A stretch of 64,000 bases of DNA, taken from Mesorhizobium sp. M7A.F.Ca.US.008.03.1.1. Lineage in GTDB: Bacteria > Pseudomonadota > Alphaproteobacteria > Rhizobiales > Rhizobiaceae. Below the pieces are notes generated by a model, which ran no database searches, was not told the origin of the DNA, and was given only the letters and a program-made list of their open reading frames with translations. Numbering within the stretch: position 1 is the first letter of the stretch; every line of letters starts with the position of its first letter. A program made the position numbers and the translations under genes. Of the stretch, positions 10,864 to 56,675 are shown piece by piece. Location: NCBI RefSeq assembly GCF_003997495.1, contig NZ_RZRU01000004.1, forward strand, positions 1 through 64,000, read 5' to 3'.

Positions 10864-11463
10864 ATGTTCGTGACATCTGCCTTTGCGCAAGAGTCCGCGC
10901 CATCAGCCGATACCAGCCACGCTGCGACGGAAGGCGAAACGCATTCCGGCACCAGCGTGCCTGCTGAAGCGCATGGCACGTTTCCGCCATTCGATCCGGC
11001 GACGTTCCCGTCGCAGCTTCTATGGCTGGCGATCACCTTCGGCCTGTTCTATCTCTTCCTGAAGCGGGTGGTGATGCCGCGCGTCGGCGGCATCATCGAT
11101 GTCCGCAACGATCGCATCACGCAGGATCTCGACCAGGCGGCCAAGTTGAAGGGCGAGGCCGACGCCGCCGTTGCTGCCTACGAGCAGGAACTGGCGGAAG
11201 CCAAGACCAATGCCAACGCGATTGGCCAGCAGGCCAACGACGCGGCCAAGGCCGAGGCCGACACCGCTCGCAAGAAGGTCGAGGCCGCGCTCGACGCGAA
11301 GCTTGGCGAAGCCGAAGCCCGCATTTCTTCCATCAAGGCCAATGCCATGAAGGAAGTCGGCAGCATCGCCGAGGACACCGCTTCGGCGATCGTCGAGGCT
11401 CTGGTTGGCGGCAAGGCCAGCAAGGCCGAGATCGCGGCCGCGGTCAAATCCGTGGCCCGGTGA
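10864..11463 (+). CDS. atpF': ATP synthase F0 subunit b'
   Basis: A 199-residue peripheral-stalk subunit. A variable Thr/Ala/Pro-rich N-terminus (residues 1-50) is followed by one membrane helix (LLWLAITFGLFYLFLKRVVMP) and a long alanine/lysine/glutamate coiled coil (for example AAKLKGEADAAVAAYEQELA). Alphaproteobacteria and photosynthetic bacteria carry two diverged b-type genes; the first, with the longer N-terminus, is usually b'. It is followed after 10 bases by atpF, so the two stalk halves are made from adjacent cistrons. Start ATG 10864 sits close after atpE in the same operon. Confidence 0.93.
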   Translation: MFVTSAFAQESAPSADTSHAATEGETHSGTSVPAEAHGTFPPFDPATFPSQLLWLAITFGLFYLFLKRVVMPRVGGIIDVRNDRITQDLDQAAKLKGEADAAVAAYEQELAEAKTNANAIGQQANDAAKAEADTARKKVEAALDAKLGEAEARISSIKANAMKEVGSIAEDTASAIVEALVGGKASKAEIAAAVKSVAR

Positions 11464-11473
11464 GGAGCGCATC

Positions 11474-11965
11474 ATGGATTACACATCTCTCGCGACGCTC
11501 TGGGCCACGATAGCCCTGATCATCTTCCTCGGCGTTGCCGTCTACATCAAGGTGCCTGGCATGATCGCCAAGGCGCTCGACGCCCGCGCCGCCAGGATCA
11601 GCAATGAGCTGGACGAGGCACGCCGGCTGCGCGAGGAGGCGCAGCAACTGCTCGGCCAGTATCAGCGCAAGCGCAAGGAAGCCGAGCAGGAGGCCGCCGA
11701 CATCGTCGCCGCCGCCAAGCGTGAAGCCGACATGCTTGCCGCCGACGCGCACAAGAAGACCGAGGACTACGTCGTCAGGCGCACCGCGCTTGCCGAACAG
11801 AAGATCGGCCAAGCCGAGCGTGACGCCATCAGCGAAGTCCGCGCCAGCGCCGTCGACATCGCCGTCGAGGCAGCGCGCGCGCTGCTCGCCGGCAAGATCG
11901 ACGCCAAGGCCGGTGCAGATCTGTTCAAGGCTTCGCTTGTGGACGTGAAGTCGAAGCTGAACTAA
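11474..11965 (+). CDS. atpF: ATP synthase F0 subunit b
   Basis: A 163-residue b subunit with an N-terminal membrane helix (TSLATLWATIALIIFLGVAVYIKV) and a long amphipathic charged helix that dimerises with b' to form the peripheral stalk (RISNELDEARRLREEAQQLL and onward). The true start is ATG 11474, after GAGGAG at 11462-11467; longer in-frame starts would overlap atpF'. It is the last gene of the operon, and a rho-independent terminator follows 24 bases after its stop. Confidence 0.95.
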   Translation: MDYTSLATLWATIALIIFLGVAVYIKVPGMIAKALDARAARISNELDEARRLREEAQQLLGQYQRKRKEAEQEAADIVAAAKREADMLAADAHKKTEDYVVRRTALAEQKIGQAERDAISEVRASAVDIAVEAARALLAGKIDAKAGADLFKASLVDVKSKLN

Positions 11966-11989
11966 GCGGTTGATTTAATCGCAGACATC

Positions 11990-12019
11990 AAGCCGCCTGG
12001 GCAACCTGGCGGCTTTTTT
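11990..12019 (+). terminator. Rho-independent terminator of the atp operon
   Basis: An 8-bp stem (AAGCCGCC at 11990-11997, GGCGGCTT at 12008-12015) is extended by two more G-C pairs past a T-T mismatch, closing a GCAA tetraloop. A run of six T follows (12014-12019). It lies 24 bases after atpF and is a textbook terminator. Confidence 0.92.
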
Positions 12020-12051
12020 GTTGGGTGCTGGGCGCGACGTCGAAGCTGCCG

Positions 12052-12074
12052 ATCTTCCCCCTCGTGGGGGAGAT
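12052..12074. repeat. Single-arm copy of the TCTCCCCC...GGGGGAGA palindromic repeat
   Basis: ATCTTCCCCCT-CGT-GGGGGAGAT is a near-perfect hairpin with the same core as the outer arms of the element inserted in glyS (30342-30463). Here only one arm is recognisable; the sequence after it (CTCCGCCGTCGGTGGTGGG) resembles the inner part of such elements but no second arm is seen. It is probably a decayed copy of a dispersed rhizobial palindromic repeat. Confidence 0.6.
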
Positions 12075-12099
12075 TGGCAACTCCGCCGTCGGTGGTGGG

Positions 12100-12441
12100 T
12101 CAGTTTGAAAATGGCGAGAGCAGAAGCTGCGCGAGTTGGTCGTCGATAGGAAAGTGAATCTGCGGCGTCGACAGCATGTGGATTACCTCTTGCGTTCGCT
12201 CGTCCGCGAACTCGATGTCATCGCGGATCTCAACAAGATCGGCCCATTCCTGTACGTCCTTCGCGTCAAGGTTCTCGGCCAGAAAACGCAAGAGAACGCT
12301 ACGAATGTGATCGTAGGTCAGCCTGACGAGCGGTTTTGGATAGTCCCAGGGAAGCGTCGCTAGAAGCATTTCAAGCTCAGCAACCGGCCGATCCAACTCA
12401 ACCAGTGAGTGGATGATAGAACGCCGTTCTTCCTCTCGCAT
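12100..12441 (-). CDS. Conserved hypothetical protein, 113 residues
   Basis: I do not recognise a named domain. The product is predicted soluble, mostly helical and rich in Leu, Asp and Glu (for example VAELEMLLATLPWDYP and RFLAENLDAKDVQEWADLVEIRDDIEF). Its layout resembles small acidic proteins sometimes found as immunity or cargo-adjacent genes, but no toxin partner is present here. Hand counts of two rows (12181-12300) give 53-57 % GC, lower than the flanking atp and rnhB genes, and a decayed repeat arm lies just beyond its stop. Both facts suggest later acquisition. Its start (ATG 12441) lies 31 bases before the stop of rnhB, with the same orientation. Confidence 0.6.
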   Translation of the reverse strand: MREEERRSIIHSLVELDRPVAELEMLLATLPWDYPKPLVRLTYDHIRSVLLRFLAENLDAKDVQEWADLVEIRDDIEFADERTQEVIHMLSTPQIHFPIDDQLAQLLLSPFSN

Positions 12442-12472
12442 GCTTTCGCCTGACCGCTACCCCGCCGTCAGC

Positions 12473-13168
12473 TCACTCCAGCCCAGCGAAGCTCTCTTCC
12501 TCGACAGCCTCAACGCCACCCAGCCGAAACGGCGCAAACGACACGCGGTGCAGCCGCGCCACCGGACCATGCGCCTCGATCGCCGTGCGATGGCGGACCG
12601 TGGCGTAGCCCATATGGACTTCGAACCCATAGCGGTCGTGATGGTTGCCGCACCCGCACATCATGCGGTCGCGCATCACCTTGGCGACGATCGAGGCGGC
12701 GGCGATCGATTGCGAACGCTGGTCGCCCTTGATCAGTGCGCGCCCTTCACAAGGCAGCCCCGGTGGCACGTCGCGTCCGTCGGCCAGCGCGAGCTTCGGT
12801 CGGACCGAGAGCCCTACCAGGGCGCGGCGCATGGCTTCCAGGCTTGCCTTGAGGATGTTGCTGCCGTCGATGCCCTCGGCGCTGATGGAGGCCATCGAGA
12901 CCGCCTGGGCGGAGCCGAGAATTCGCAGGAACAAGGCTTCACGCTGCAAGTGGCTGAGGCGTTTGGAATCGTCGAGGCCGTCGGGAATGTTGGCGGGATC
13001 GAGCACAACCGCCGCGGCGACCACCGGCCCGGCCAGGGGGCCACGACCGGCCTCGTCCATCCCGGCGACCGGCCACAGGCCCTCCGCCATCGCCTTCGTC
13101 TCGAAGGAGAAGTCGGGCTTCTCGATGATCTCAAAGAGAGGCGGAGAATCAGAACGCGCGCGAGCCAT
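12473..13168 (-). CDS. rnhB: Ribonuclease HII
   Basis: A 231-residue enzyme that cuts the RNA strand of RNA-DNA hybrids and single ribonucleotides in DNA. The catalytic core begins [15 protein letters not shown] (Asp38, Glu39), continues with [12 protein letters not shown], and later has [22 protein letters not shown]. These supply the remaining metal ligands of the type 2 RNase H family. ATG 13168 is chosen. The frame extends upstream to 13330, but that stretch is proline/arginine-rich, overlaps a dispersed palindromic repeat, and has no family similarity. The length is normal for alphaproteobacterial RNase HII. Confidence 0.93.
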
Positions 13169-13280
13169 GTTGCGGCGAGGTTCGCATCGGCTCCGATTCT
13201 CCGCAAGTCCCTCCGGTCGGGTGGGGCGCCGGACCGGGAGGGCACCGTCTGCAGGCCGGGGCAGGCCGGACGGGATTCCA

Positions 13281-37030: not shown

Positions 37031-37210
37031 CTTCTCCCGTCACTATACCGGGAGAAGTGCCCGGCAGGGCGATGAGGGGCGGCGCTGGCCTAGATGTTTA
37101 GCCACCTCAAAGTCTGATCGGATGCATGTGCATTTCATCTTGCCTCCAAGGTCGGCGCTGCCCCTCATCCGGCTGTCGCCACCTTCTCCCCGTATAGTGA
37201 CGGGGAGAAG
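37031..37210. repeat. Intergenic palindromic element with paired hairpin ends
   Basis: The left end (37031-37057, CTTCTCCCG...CGGGAGAAG) and right end (37183-37210, CTTCTCCCC...GGGGAGAAG) are each hairpins and are inverted copies of one another. Their loops (TCACTATAC and GTATAGTGA) are reverse complements. Just inside, GATGAGGGG (37071-37079) pairs with CCCCTCATC (37161-37169). This matches the build of the element inside glyS. It fills the space between the DUF6101 gene and ubiA. Confidence 0.85.
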
Positions 37211-54365: not shown

Positions 54366-54417
54366 AGTTCTCACCGGAGCTTTCGTGCCGGTAGCCGTTC
54401 CCGATAGGAATTTTTTC

Positions 54418-54447
54418 TTGACACCATGCCCTCAGCTAAGGTACATA
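54418..54447 (+). promoter_or_regulatory. Strong promoter before the small RNA candidate
   Basis: TTGACA at 54418-54423 (perfect -35) is followed 18 bases later by TACATA at 54442-54447 (-10; at 17 bases the hexamer is GTACAT). An upstream T-rich tract (TTTTTTC, 54411-54417) resembles an UP element. Transcription would begin near 54454. Confidence 0.65.
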
Positions 54448-54453
54448 TTCATC

Positions 54454-54499
54454 CATGGTGCTGATTTGCGCCAGTGATCCGCCGCACAGGCGGTTTTTT
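54454..54499 (+). ncRNA. Candidate small RNA or attenuator leader
   Basis: From the promoter at 54418 the predicted transcript of about 46 bases folds into two hairpins. The first is TGGTGC (54456-54461) with GCGCCA (54468-54473), 6 bp with one G-U pair, loop TGATTT. The second is CCGCC (54479-54483) with GGCGG (54489-54493) and then TTTTTT, a terminator. A 46-codon frame (ATG 54454) crosses it, but its weak start region makes coding doubtful. It could be a free small RNA or a terminated leader for the membrane protein gene at 54654. Confidence 0.5.
54479..54499 (+). terminator. Terminator of the small RNA candidate
   Basis: CCGCC-GCACA-GGCGG followed by six T (54494-54499): a short, GC-only stem with a full T-run about 50 bases after the promoter at 54418-54447 and 155 bases before the next gene start. 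Confidence 0.75.
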
Positions 54500-54653
54500 C
54501 GTTTGATGCTCGTCAGCCACCGCGCCGGCGAAAGGCTCCGAAAGAAACCGTTACCCCGAATTCGTCGCCCTTTGGCATCAGAGGCCGGCAATTGACAATC
54601 GCCGGGTTGAGTTCATCCTCTTCCACCATCTCTGAGGCGGAGATTCGGGGCAC

Positions 54654-55637
54654 ATGTGGGATTTTGAGATCGGCCGGTCGGTGTCCATCATGATGCGGAC
54701 CTGGCCTTTCATCGTCTTTCGCATGATCGTCTATTTCGGCATCACGCTGGCCTACATCATGGCGACCGGCACCGGTGCTTCGGTTGGCTATGGCGTCGGC
54801 CATATCTCCACCGATCCCGACGGGCCCATGTCCTTTGCCCTGTGGGGCGGGGTGGTCGGTTTCGGTATCGTCTCGATCGCCGTCTACTGGATCCGCGAAT
54901 ACATCCTCTATGTCGTCAAGGCCGGCCACATCGCCGTCATGGTTCATCTGATCGACGGCCGCGACATTCCCGGCGGTCAGGACCAGATCGCCTATGCCAG
55001 GGACATCGTGACCCAGCGTTTTGCCGAGGCCAACATCCTTTTCGTCGTCGACCAACTCGTCAAGGGTGCCATCCGCGCCATCACCGGCCTGCTCGGCGGT
55101 ATCGCCGCCTTCCTGCCGATACCGGGCCTGAGCGGCCTGGTCTCCTTCATCAATACGGTGATCCGCCTGTCGCTGACCTATGTCGATGAGATCATCCTCG
55201 GCTACAACATCCGCATCAATTCAGCCTCGCCGTTCGAGACGGCGCGCCAAGGCGTCGTGCTCTATGCCCAGAACGGCAAGGTCATGGTCAAGAACGCCGT
55301 CTGGCTGGCGGTCATCATGTGGGGCGTGTCGTTCATCATCTTTCTGATGATGCTGGCGCCTGCCGGTGTGATTCTGTTCCTGATGCCTGGCCAACTCGCC
55401 GGCTGGGCTTTTGTGCTCGCCATCGTCTTCGCCTGGGCATTCAAGGCGGCGTTCATTGAACCCTTCGCCATCGCCTGCCTGATGCAGGTCTATTTCAAGA
55501 CCATCGCGGGCCAGATGCCGGATCCGGCCTGGGACGCCCGGCTGGCCGAGGCGTCGTCGAAGTTCAGGGAGCTCAAGGACAAGGCGCTGGCCTCCTTCGG
55601 CGGTTCGCGCTGGGGCACGGCCGGCGCGACACCCTGA
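54654..55637 (+). CDS. Conserved multi-pass membrane protein, 327 residues
   Basis: I do not recognise a named family. There are about seven hydrophobic segments, for example PFIVFRMIVYFGITLAYIM, GGVVGFGIVSIAVYWI, GLLGGIAAFLPIPGLSGLV, AVWLAVIMWGVSFIIFLMMLAP and GQLAGWAFVLAIVFAWAFKAA. There are polar conserved-looking motifs on the cytosolic side (VKAGHIAVMVHLIDGRDIPGGQDQI) and an amphipathic C-terminal tail. Such a layout suggests a channel or a membrane-organising protein of the ABC/DUF type, as inference. The promoter-leader-terminator unit at 54418-54499 precedes it. Its last 148 bases are overlapped antisense by the extended bluB tail. Confidence 0.8.
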   Translation: MWDFEIGRSVSIMMRTWPFIVFRMIVYFGITLAYIMATGTGASVGYGVGHISTDPDGPMSFALWGGVVGFGIVSIAVYWIREYILYVVKAGHIAVMVHLIDGRDIPGGQDQIAYARDIVTQRFAEANILFVVDQLVKGAIRAITGLLGGIAAFLPIPGLSGLVSFINTVIRLSLTYVDEIILGYNIRINSASPFETARQGVVLYAQNGKVMVKNAVWLAVIMWGVSFIIFLMMLAPAGVILFLMPGQLAGWAFVLAIVFAWAFKAAFIEPFAIACLMQVYFKTIAGQMPDPAWDARLAEASSKFRELKDKALASFGGSRWGTAGATP

Positions 55638-56389
55638 TCGGATGGGCGGATGGTGTTTGGTGAGGCAGAAACGGTGTTGAGGCGCGCCACGGTGGATTTG
55701 AGCTGTGTCTCGCCTTGCCCGGAAAAAGTCTCGCTCATGATCAGCTCCGGCAGCGGCAGCCGCCGTCCCCAGCCGTGCGTTTCAAGGTCCGGTTTGGGAG
55801 CGAACTCGGAAACACGGCCGACGCAGAGATAGGCGACCGGCGTTACGTGATCCGGAATGGCCAACAGCCGCCTTAGCGCCTCAGCCTCGATGATGCTCAC
55901 CCAGCCGACGCCAACGCCCTCGGCACGCGCGGCCAGCCAGAAATTCTGCACCGCGCAGACGGTGCTGTAGAGATCCATCTCCGGATTGTGCCAGCGTCCC
56001 AGCGGCGAACCCTTCGAGCGCTGCCGGTCGCAGGTGATGCAGATGTTGAGCGCGCTCTCGCAGATGCCTTCCAGCTTGAGCGTGCGGTACAGCGCCTGTT
56101 TTTCCGCCTCGATCGCCGGCAGTTCTTGCTCGCGCGCGGCCAGGAACAGGTCGCGCACCCTTTCGCGTCGCTCGACGTCACGAATGACAATGAAATTCCA
56201 TGGCTGCATGAAGCCGACCGATGGCGCGTGATGGGCGGCAAGCAGCAGCCGCCCCAGCACGTCGTCATCGACCGCGGTGGGCAGGAAATGGCTGCGCACG
56301 TCGCGCCGCGTGAACATGGCGCGATAGACCGCATCGCGCGCATTCTGGTCAAATCCATCGTCAATGGCAGCGGTCATATGTTCCGGCAT
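55490..56389 (-). CDS. bluB: 5,6-dimethylbenzimidazole synthase with C-terminal tail
   Basis: A 299-residue protein: the first 220 residues are BluB, which fragments reduced FMN to make the lower ligand of cobalamin. Signatures: RDAVYRAMFTRRDVRSHF, APSVGFMQPWNFIVI (with the phosphate-binding residues), NPEMDLYSTVCAVQNFWLAARAEGVGVGWVSI, and GWGRRLPLPELI, the usual end. The last 79 residues (from about TFSGQG, bases 55493-55729) are unlike the family and overlap the neighbour antisense for 148 bases. ATG 56389 has AAGGGG before it. A cobalamin riboswitch (56500-56675) lies upstream, so expression is set by B12. Confidence 0.92.
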   Translation of the reverse strand: MPEHMTAAIDDGFDQNARDAVYRAMFTRRDVRSHFLPTAVDDDVLGRLLLAAHHAPSVGFMQPWNFIVIRDVERRERVRDLFLAAREQELPAIEAEKQALYRTLKLEGICESALNICITCDRQRSKGSPLGRWHNPEMDLYSTVCAVQNFWLAARAEGVGVGWVSIIEAEALRRLLAIPDHVTPVAYLCVGRVSEFAPKPDLETHGWGRRLPLPELIMSETFSGQGETQLKSTVARLNTVSASPNTIRPSDQGVAPAVPQREPPKEASALSLSSLNFDDASASRASQAGSGIWPAMVLK

Positions 56390-56499
56390 CGCTTGTCCCC
56401 TTGCGATTGCAGATGCAAAACTGTCAGAGCGTACTTTGTGCGTCCAAACGGACGCACGTCGCTCCGATGTCACCCGCCTGACCAAGCGGATGACGATGC

Positions 56500-56675
56500 C
56501 TGCCAGGCCGGTCTTCTGGCTTGGGATCAACCCGCGTCCGGTGCCTTCCCGTCATCGACAGTGGCATTTACCGGCGCGGTCCCCCTCACAGCGTTGGGCA
56601 CGCCACGGAATTCAACCGTGTTCCCGATTCTCCCGCTTGCGGCGGGCACCAGGCATTACCAAGAACCTTACGCCG
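56500..56675 (-). promoter_or_regulatory. Cobalamin (B12) riboswitch upstream of bluB
   Basis: On the minus strand the conserved elements occur in order: GGTGCCCGCC (56641-56650), AATCGGGAACACGG, the B12 box core GCCACTG (56559-56565), GGGAAGGC, and AGCCAGAAGACCGGCCTGGC ending near 56501. This is the standard cobalamin aptamer. Between it and the bluB start there is a perfect 8-bp hairpin (GTGCGTCC / GGACGCAC, 56438-56457) that may belong to the expression platform; no T-run follows, so control may be translational. Bases 56676-56789, up to the HDAC-type gene, hold nothing further that I recognise. Confidence 0.95.

Follow-up and report, generated by a model that had tools for sequence, protein, structure and literature searches.

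The lambda late leader (6S RNA, pR'-tR') is a short RNA that ends at a terminator ahead of the phage late genes, an arrangement that resembles the home locus of the RNA described here. In Coxiella burnetii, the small RNAs CbsR3, CbsR13 and CbsR16 arise from the MITEs QMITE1/QMITE2, and their promoters lie wholly or partly outside the element (PMC5896051). The rhizobial small RNA alpha-r14/NfeR1 is multicopy, with a sigma70 promoter that carries extra conserved residues; NfeR1 has three hairpins and anti-Shine-Dalgarno motifs in its loops (PMC7143759). The feature analysed here lies within 64,000 nucleotides of a contig from Mesorhizobium sp. M7A.F.Ca.US.008.03.1.1, a stretch referred to as the window. 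Our analysis indicates, with a probability of roughly 0.7, that the feature represents one of the copies of a non-coding RNA gene that is specific to Mesorhizobium, was spread by a MITE, is useful and probably acts in trans.

Anatomy and fold of the window copy

A sequence-only reading of the interval had described TTGACA, a spacer, TACATA, two hairpins and a six-T terminator, and each of these signals is present at 54418-54499. The features of the copy and its surroundings are as follows.

54376-54572 (+), remnant of a MITE-like element with the 5' inverted-repeat arm deleted and the 3' inverted repeat kept (from alignments)
54403-54422 (+), near-invariant upstream box GATAGGAATTTTTTCTTGAC, which overlaps the -35 hexamer (low divergence among copies)
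54418-54423 (+), -35 hexamer TTGACA (from sequence; position kept across copies)
54442-54447 (+), -10 hexamer TACATA (from sequence; TACATA, TACTAT or TACTAA across copies)
54455-54499 (+), predicted small RNA of ~45-46 nt (covariance model R1, 68.1 bits; fold z -3.3)
54456-54473 (+), hairpin 1, UGGUGC-UGAUUU-GCGCCA (low pairwise differences; tested variants fold)
54479-54499 (+), intrinsic terminator CCGCC-GCACA-GGCGG plus TTTTTT (terminator scan, fold; kept in all model copies)
54550-54572 (-), 3' terminal inverted repeat (pattern search, L216; 3 mismatches against the 23-bp consensus)
54592-54619 (+), separate promoter-like TTGACA...CATCCT of the membrane-protein gene (aligned orthologous upstream regions)
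54654-55637 (+), membrane-protein gene of no Pfam family, a neighbour outside the element (ORF list, Pfam, relatives)

The conserved unit runs from GATAGGAATTTTTTC (54403) to the 3' inverted repeat ending at 54572. The 5' edge of the remnant is approximate and comes from alignment with a complete copy at the same site in genome G369 (L163) and with empty sites in relatives. The two promoter hexamers are separated by 18 nt. The start of the predicted RNA was placed 8 nt past the -10 hexamer and its end at the T-run. The terminator, which consists of a GC stem-loop (54479-54493) and TTTTTT (54494-54499), was also picked up by an independent scan. The promoter is absent from the output of that scan, because its -10 hexamer is weak by the standard of E. 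coli sigma70.

The segment 54455-54500 folds at -19.4 kcal/mol, compared with a mean of -11.6 for shuffled sequences (z -3.3), and 1 of 200 shuffles folded equally well. All six RNA variants tested fold as two hairpins (z -2.6 to -5.0), and variants of hairpin 1, including GGUGCCAAUUGGCUCC, GGUGCUGAUUCGCACC and GGUGUUGAUCUGCACC, keep the hairpin fold. The covariance search that had been suggested as a check recovers conserved hairpins in 130 of 146 genus genomes, but the compensatory changes expected with them did not appear: the covariance-model alignment contains 0 stem pairs with changes on both sides. Only the third stem pair varies (U-G, C-G, U-A), and the stems are too invariant to yield formal covariation.

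An ATG stands at the predicted +1 position in nearly all copies, raising the question of a leaderless micro-ORF (MVLICA...) in place of a non-coding RNA. However, only 3 of the 206 ATG-bearing copies have an in-frame stop ahead of the T-run, making translation unlikely, and the other 203 reach the terminator without a stop codon. Changes in hairpin 1 are often non-synonymous (ATT to AGT, ACT or GTT), and changes in terminator-loop length are out of frame. A coding leaderless peptide was rejected because stop codons before the T-run are nearly always missing, and we consider this reading very improbable.

Conservation and divergence across the genus

In the genus search, the 135-bp region used as query gave many matches in the window's genome and in some relatives. 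The window's genome holds 18 copies by BLAST (79-100% identity) and 19 by the covariance model R1, built from 49 distinct sequences, at E<=1e-8. Most of the 18 aligned copies include the promoter. Common to the copies are GATAGGAATTTTTTCTTGAC, the spacer, TACATA, ATGGTGCTGATTTGCGCC and the CCGCC...GGCGG terminator, and their flanks differ. With at least 18 copies in one genome and a model score of 68 bits in the window (E 9e-19), a chance origin of the promoter, hairpin and terminator signals is excluded. A weak model match elsewhere in the window (11964-12018, 16.7 bits) resembles the terminators usual at gene ends.

The count of 130 of 146 genus genomes was obtained with the covariance model at E<=1e-8. 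Most genomes hold 1-3 copies, and 24 of the 146 hold 12-34. Genomes with 1-3 copies carry the same RNA with a related promoter and without the element ends. Among 247 genomes of the taxonomic family, matches above 44 bits are confined to Mesorhizobium. Matches in other genera score at most 36.5 bits and on inspection resemble ordinary terminators, which is why they were left uncounted.

Three promoter types can be distinguished. Type A is GATAGGAATTTTTTCTTGAC, as in the window copy; in a scan of named genomes its pattern has 57 matches, all in Mesorhizobium and mostly in M. ciceri and the M7A group. Type B often has TAGGAAaaTaTgCCTA or TAGGAATTTTTTCCTA, followed by TTGnC and the spacer GGTGAGGGCAGCTATGC. 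Type C is ATTTTGTTCTTGCTTTGTGCCGGCAGCTATGC; G017 and G346 hold 26 and 34 copies of this type, amplified as a unit of ~100 bp (L251 30-1345; L220-L248). These C-type units stand partly in tandem ahead of a small gene, and no inverted repeats are detectable at them in the two genomes.

In Rfam 15, no family matches the RNA at its gathering threshold or at relaxed thresholds. The best sub-threshold scores, CRISPR-DR4 (17.9, cut-off 35) and isrD (16.5, cut-off 37), reflect terminator resemblance only. The element is unmatched in plasmid and phage collections. The literature searched yielded no description of the RNA or the element, and the hairpin sequence was found in no paper's main text. A survey of M. 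huakuii listed 16 unannotated candidates (PMC5596092), one of which may overlap with the RNA. The earlier proposal of a new short RNA that has a promoter and a terminator to itself gains support from the genus-wide conservation, the lack of an Rfam match and the low divergence of hairpin 1.

Divergence is distributed unevenly along the element. Pairwise comparison of the G369 copies gives 0.005 differences per site for the upstream box, 0.023 for hairpin 1, 0.043 for the terminator, 0.14 for the spacer and 0.13-0.23 for the arms, and the order is the same in the window's genome. Among copies within a genome, the box stays at 0.005-0.007 compared with 0.13-0.50 in the arms. Fifteen elements were also picked by matches to the terminal inverted repeats (TIRs) alone, which avoids selecting copies by their RNA. 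In these, mismatches per site are 0.010 in the box, 0.015 in hairpin 1, 0.049 in the terminator and 0.087 in the arms. The arms vary 6-9 times more than the promoter box and hairpin 1, and they do so even among copies picked by TIR alone. When species are compared, types A and B are best conserved in hairpin 1 (0.03-0.04 pairwise differences per site), in a set of copies that were required beforehand to match hairpin 1 loosely. Among promoter-anchored copies, 102 of 146 have an identical hairpin-1 core. This pattern suggests that selection has kept the RNA nearly identical.

An ISAs1-type element and its insertion in the window

The dispersed copies lie within elements of ~235-257 bp with imperfect 23-bp TIRs and 10-bp target duplications; those carrying A-type copies in G369 measure ~240-257 bp. 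The TIR consensus is YAGGGCnnCGAACTCRGSTTAAC. Its pattern has 40 matches in G369 and 14 in the window's genome, compared with 0 for a reversed-pattern control. Both TIRs are present at <=6 mismatches in 28 of the 149 copies examined. Six of these 28 have perfect 10-bp target duplications (AGCTGACGCA, GGCAGTAGGC, GGTCCGACAT, CTTCAAGGAT, GACTCGTTCG and TCGTTGTGGC), and several others match at 9 of 10 positions.

One perfect TIR that stands alone in the window's genome was traced to the end of an insertion sequence of the ISAs1 family, which is intact and ~1.27 kb long. Its transposase matches NF033564 (332.5 bits, cut-off 70) and Pfam DDE_Tnp_1. Both of its ends match those of the RNA element (left end, CAGGGCTTCGAACTCGGGTTAAC), and it is bordered on both sides by the perfect 10-bp duplication ATTGCCGCGG. 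Because this intact ISAs1 has the same ends as the elements, the RNA gene appears to have been captured as a MITE and spread, probably mobilised by the ISAs1 transposase. At 235-257 bp the elements are too small to encode a transposase, which is encoded elsewhere. Given the TIRs, the duplications of the parent's length and the matching ISAs1, the term ISAs1-type MITE suits the element best, with the RNA gene as its cargo. The copy in the window, which is truncated, retains only the 3' TIR.

The window copy lies between a TetR gene and the membrane-protein gene at 54654, a pair present in many relatives. Several relatives have an empty site here (e.g., G028, G322, G334, G030 and G010), and G369 has a complete element. 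A left-arm-deleted element is common to the window's genome, G310 and G014; in the window copy, the 5' TIR is lost and the RNA is intact. In the orthologue alignment, the TTGACA...CATCCT before the membrane-protein gene is kept with and without the element. The empty sites and this conserved separate promoter show that the window element is an insertion and that the gene's promoter is independent of it. The earlier remark that nothing in the surrounding genes needs this feature fits an inserted mobile element.

The sequence-only reading had also offered a leader that terminates transcription into the gene at 54654. The RNA does lie on the same strand, ~155 bp upstream, and A-type copies between co-directional genes point with the downstream gene in 27 cases and against it in 11 (p 0.014, with copies that share descent entering repeatedly). 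After a rough hand count of independent insertions, this orientation preference is weak (p ~0.09). The suggestion finds no support, however: relatives with the empty site keep the gene's own promoter-like sequence, and other copies of the RNA precede unrelated genes or sit between converging ones. The role of leader for gene 54654 was rejected on the basis of the empty sites, and a transcription attenuator at this locus has, in our estimate, only a slight chance of being correct.

Two other features of the window were recorded. A cobalamin riboswitch (RF00174, 107.7 bits) at 56489-56668 (-) lies directly upstream of a nitroreductase-family gene at 55490-56530 (-) whose sequence resembles BluB. 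The true start of this gene is probably further downstream, because the listed ORF start falls inside the riboswitch. At 37036-37204 there is a 56-nt inverted repeat that includes CCCGTCACTATACCGGGAGAAG and resembles a widespread palindromic repeat of these genomes. Similar CTTCTCCCCGTCACTA(T/C)ACGGGGAG stretches adjoin some RNA copies in relatives (L098, L230).

Home locus, function and comparison with described systems

At 24 or more loci, a small gene (MPRYATIITDDDG...) has a non-mobile copy of the RNA upstream of it on the same strand, at a distance of no more than a few hundred bases. This gene belongs to no Pfam or PHROG family, and after it come the genes that encode Terminase_6N and Terminase_6C, the two parts of a P22-like large terminase. 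The RNA core occurs in 23 IMG/VR contigs, in most of them close to a contig end and in the same arrangement. No consistent upstream partner gene was found at the home loci. The small gene (MPRYATIITADDG... at L326 13554-13922 (-)) occurs in 119 of the 146 genus genomes, and its product, which has a basic K/A/P/R-rich C-terminus, is possibly a nucleic-acid binder. In L326, a lipoprotein-like gene separates the N- and C-terminal genes into which the terminase is split (10985-13266 (-)), and the layout is similar at several home loci.

The RNA is present in all 119 genomes with the small gene, and the small gene is absent from all 16 RNA-negative genomes; 11 genomes have the RNA without the small gene. 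The association is strong (Fisher p 1.5e-14, with shared descent uncorrected), and 7 of the 27 small-gene-negative genomes were assigned by elimination. This co-occurrence and the position of the home copies argue for a prophage-linked origin, with mobile copies leaving the phage context later. The source locus likely heads a P22-like prophage packaging operon.

The home locus also suggests a prophage late-operon leader of the lambda pR'-tR' kind, in which a short terminated RNA would be read through with a phage antiterminator and the mobile copies would be by-products. A promoter and terminator directly before phage late genes are found in the home-locus copies and not in the window copy. 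The same-strand placement ahead of the small gene and then the terminase genes, the presence of the RNA in every genome with the small gene and the partly conserved spacer of the home copies all favour such a leader. However, no Q-like gene was identified beside the RNA, and the RNA is absent from the Rhizobium phages nearest by terminase, including the vicinity of that gene. The mobile copies keep hairpin 1 and not the spacer, and the prophage looks defective because its terminase is split. We regard a late leader as unlikely.

The main rival to a useful RNA is a purely selfish MITE. On this view the RNA does nothing for the host, and the promoter, hairpin and terminator work for the element, for instance by keeping transcription out of its ends or by affecting the transposase. 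Such an element would have the clear TIRs, the 10-bp duplications and the ISAs1 with matching ends seen here, and copy number differs widely between species. The conserved parts of a multicopy element may, moreover, serve the element rather than the host. Three observations speak against this explanation. Most of the genus keeps the RNA at 1-3 copies without TIRs; immobile, TIR-deficient copies, including the window copy, keep the RNA; and the second amplified type (C) shows no TIR. We consider a purely selfish element unlikely.

Our favoured reading, a trans-acting RNA, can be described as follows. RNA polymerase would start at ~54455 from TTGACA/TACATA and stop at the T-run, as the anatomy and conservation suggest. 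The product would be an RNA of ~46 nt, comprising the conserved hairpin and the terminator hairpin, with its stability predicted from these two hairpins. Its source would be a single or tandem locus heading the P22-like prophage packaging operon. In one clade, the M. ciceri group, the whole transcription unit became the cargo of an ISAs1-type MITE. The sequences show that this MITE entered many intergenic sites with 10-bp duplications of the target; the part played by ISAs1 transposase is suggested by the matching ends. The usefulness of the RNA would explain why copies, including immobile ones, retain it along with the promoter box, as their low divergence implies. Its action is most likely in trans and via hairpin 1, with a protein or mRNAs as the target, and additional copies would raise its dose. 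Neither a target nor a binding protein was found. A more speculative version, which we hold only tentatively, is that a prophage-derived RNA escaped the packaging operon and reached 20-30 copies via the ISAs1 transposase, with selection on dose and not on position. Such an RNA may resemble an immunity RNA directed at the prophage operon, or it may serve as a sponge that takes up an RNA-binding protein.

If the favoured reading is correct, this would be a clear example, in bacteria, of a small RNA gene that spreads as transposon cargo with its promoter and terminator intact, and thus of a regulator whose copy number can be changed by transposition. The natural series of 1-34 copies in related species makes the effect of small RNA dose directly testable. 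The work would also define, in rhizobia that matter to agriculture, an RNA family that Rfam lacks, and it indicates that a compact promoter-hairpin-terminator between genes need not be a local regulator and can instead be a mobile unit.

The described systems each share part of this picture. Unlike the lambda late leader, the Mesorhizobium RNA has no identified antiterminator, and its mobile copies stand outside any phage context. Like alpha-r14/NfeR1, it is multicopy in rhizobia and has a conserved promoter; it differs in having two hairpins, a UGAUUU loop and no anti-Shine-Dalgarno motif. With ISAs1-family MITEs, the element shares the TIRs and 10-bp duplications that it has in common with the intact ISAs1 of the same genome. 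Unlike them, it has as cargo a complete RNA gene, with promoter, RNA and terminator, which elsewhere in the genus occurs apart from the element. The Coxiella QMITEs are likewise multicopy bacterial MITEs tied to small RNAs. In contrast to these, the Mesorhizobium RNA is apparently older than the MITE that carries it as cargo, brings a promoter of its own and is conserved more strongly than any other part of the element.
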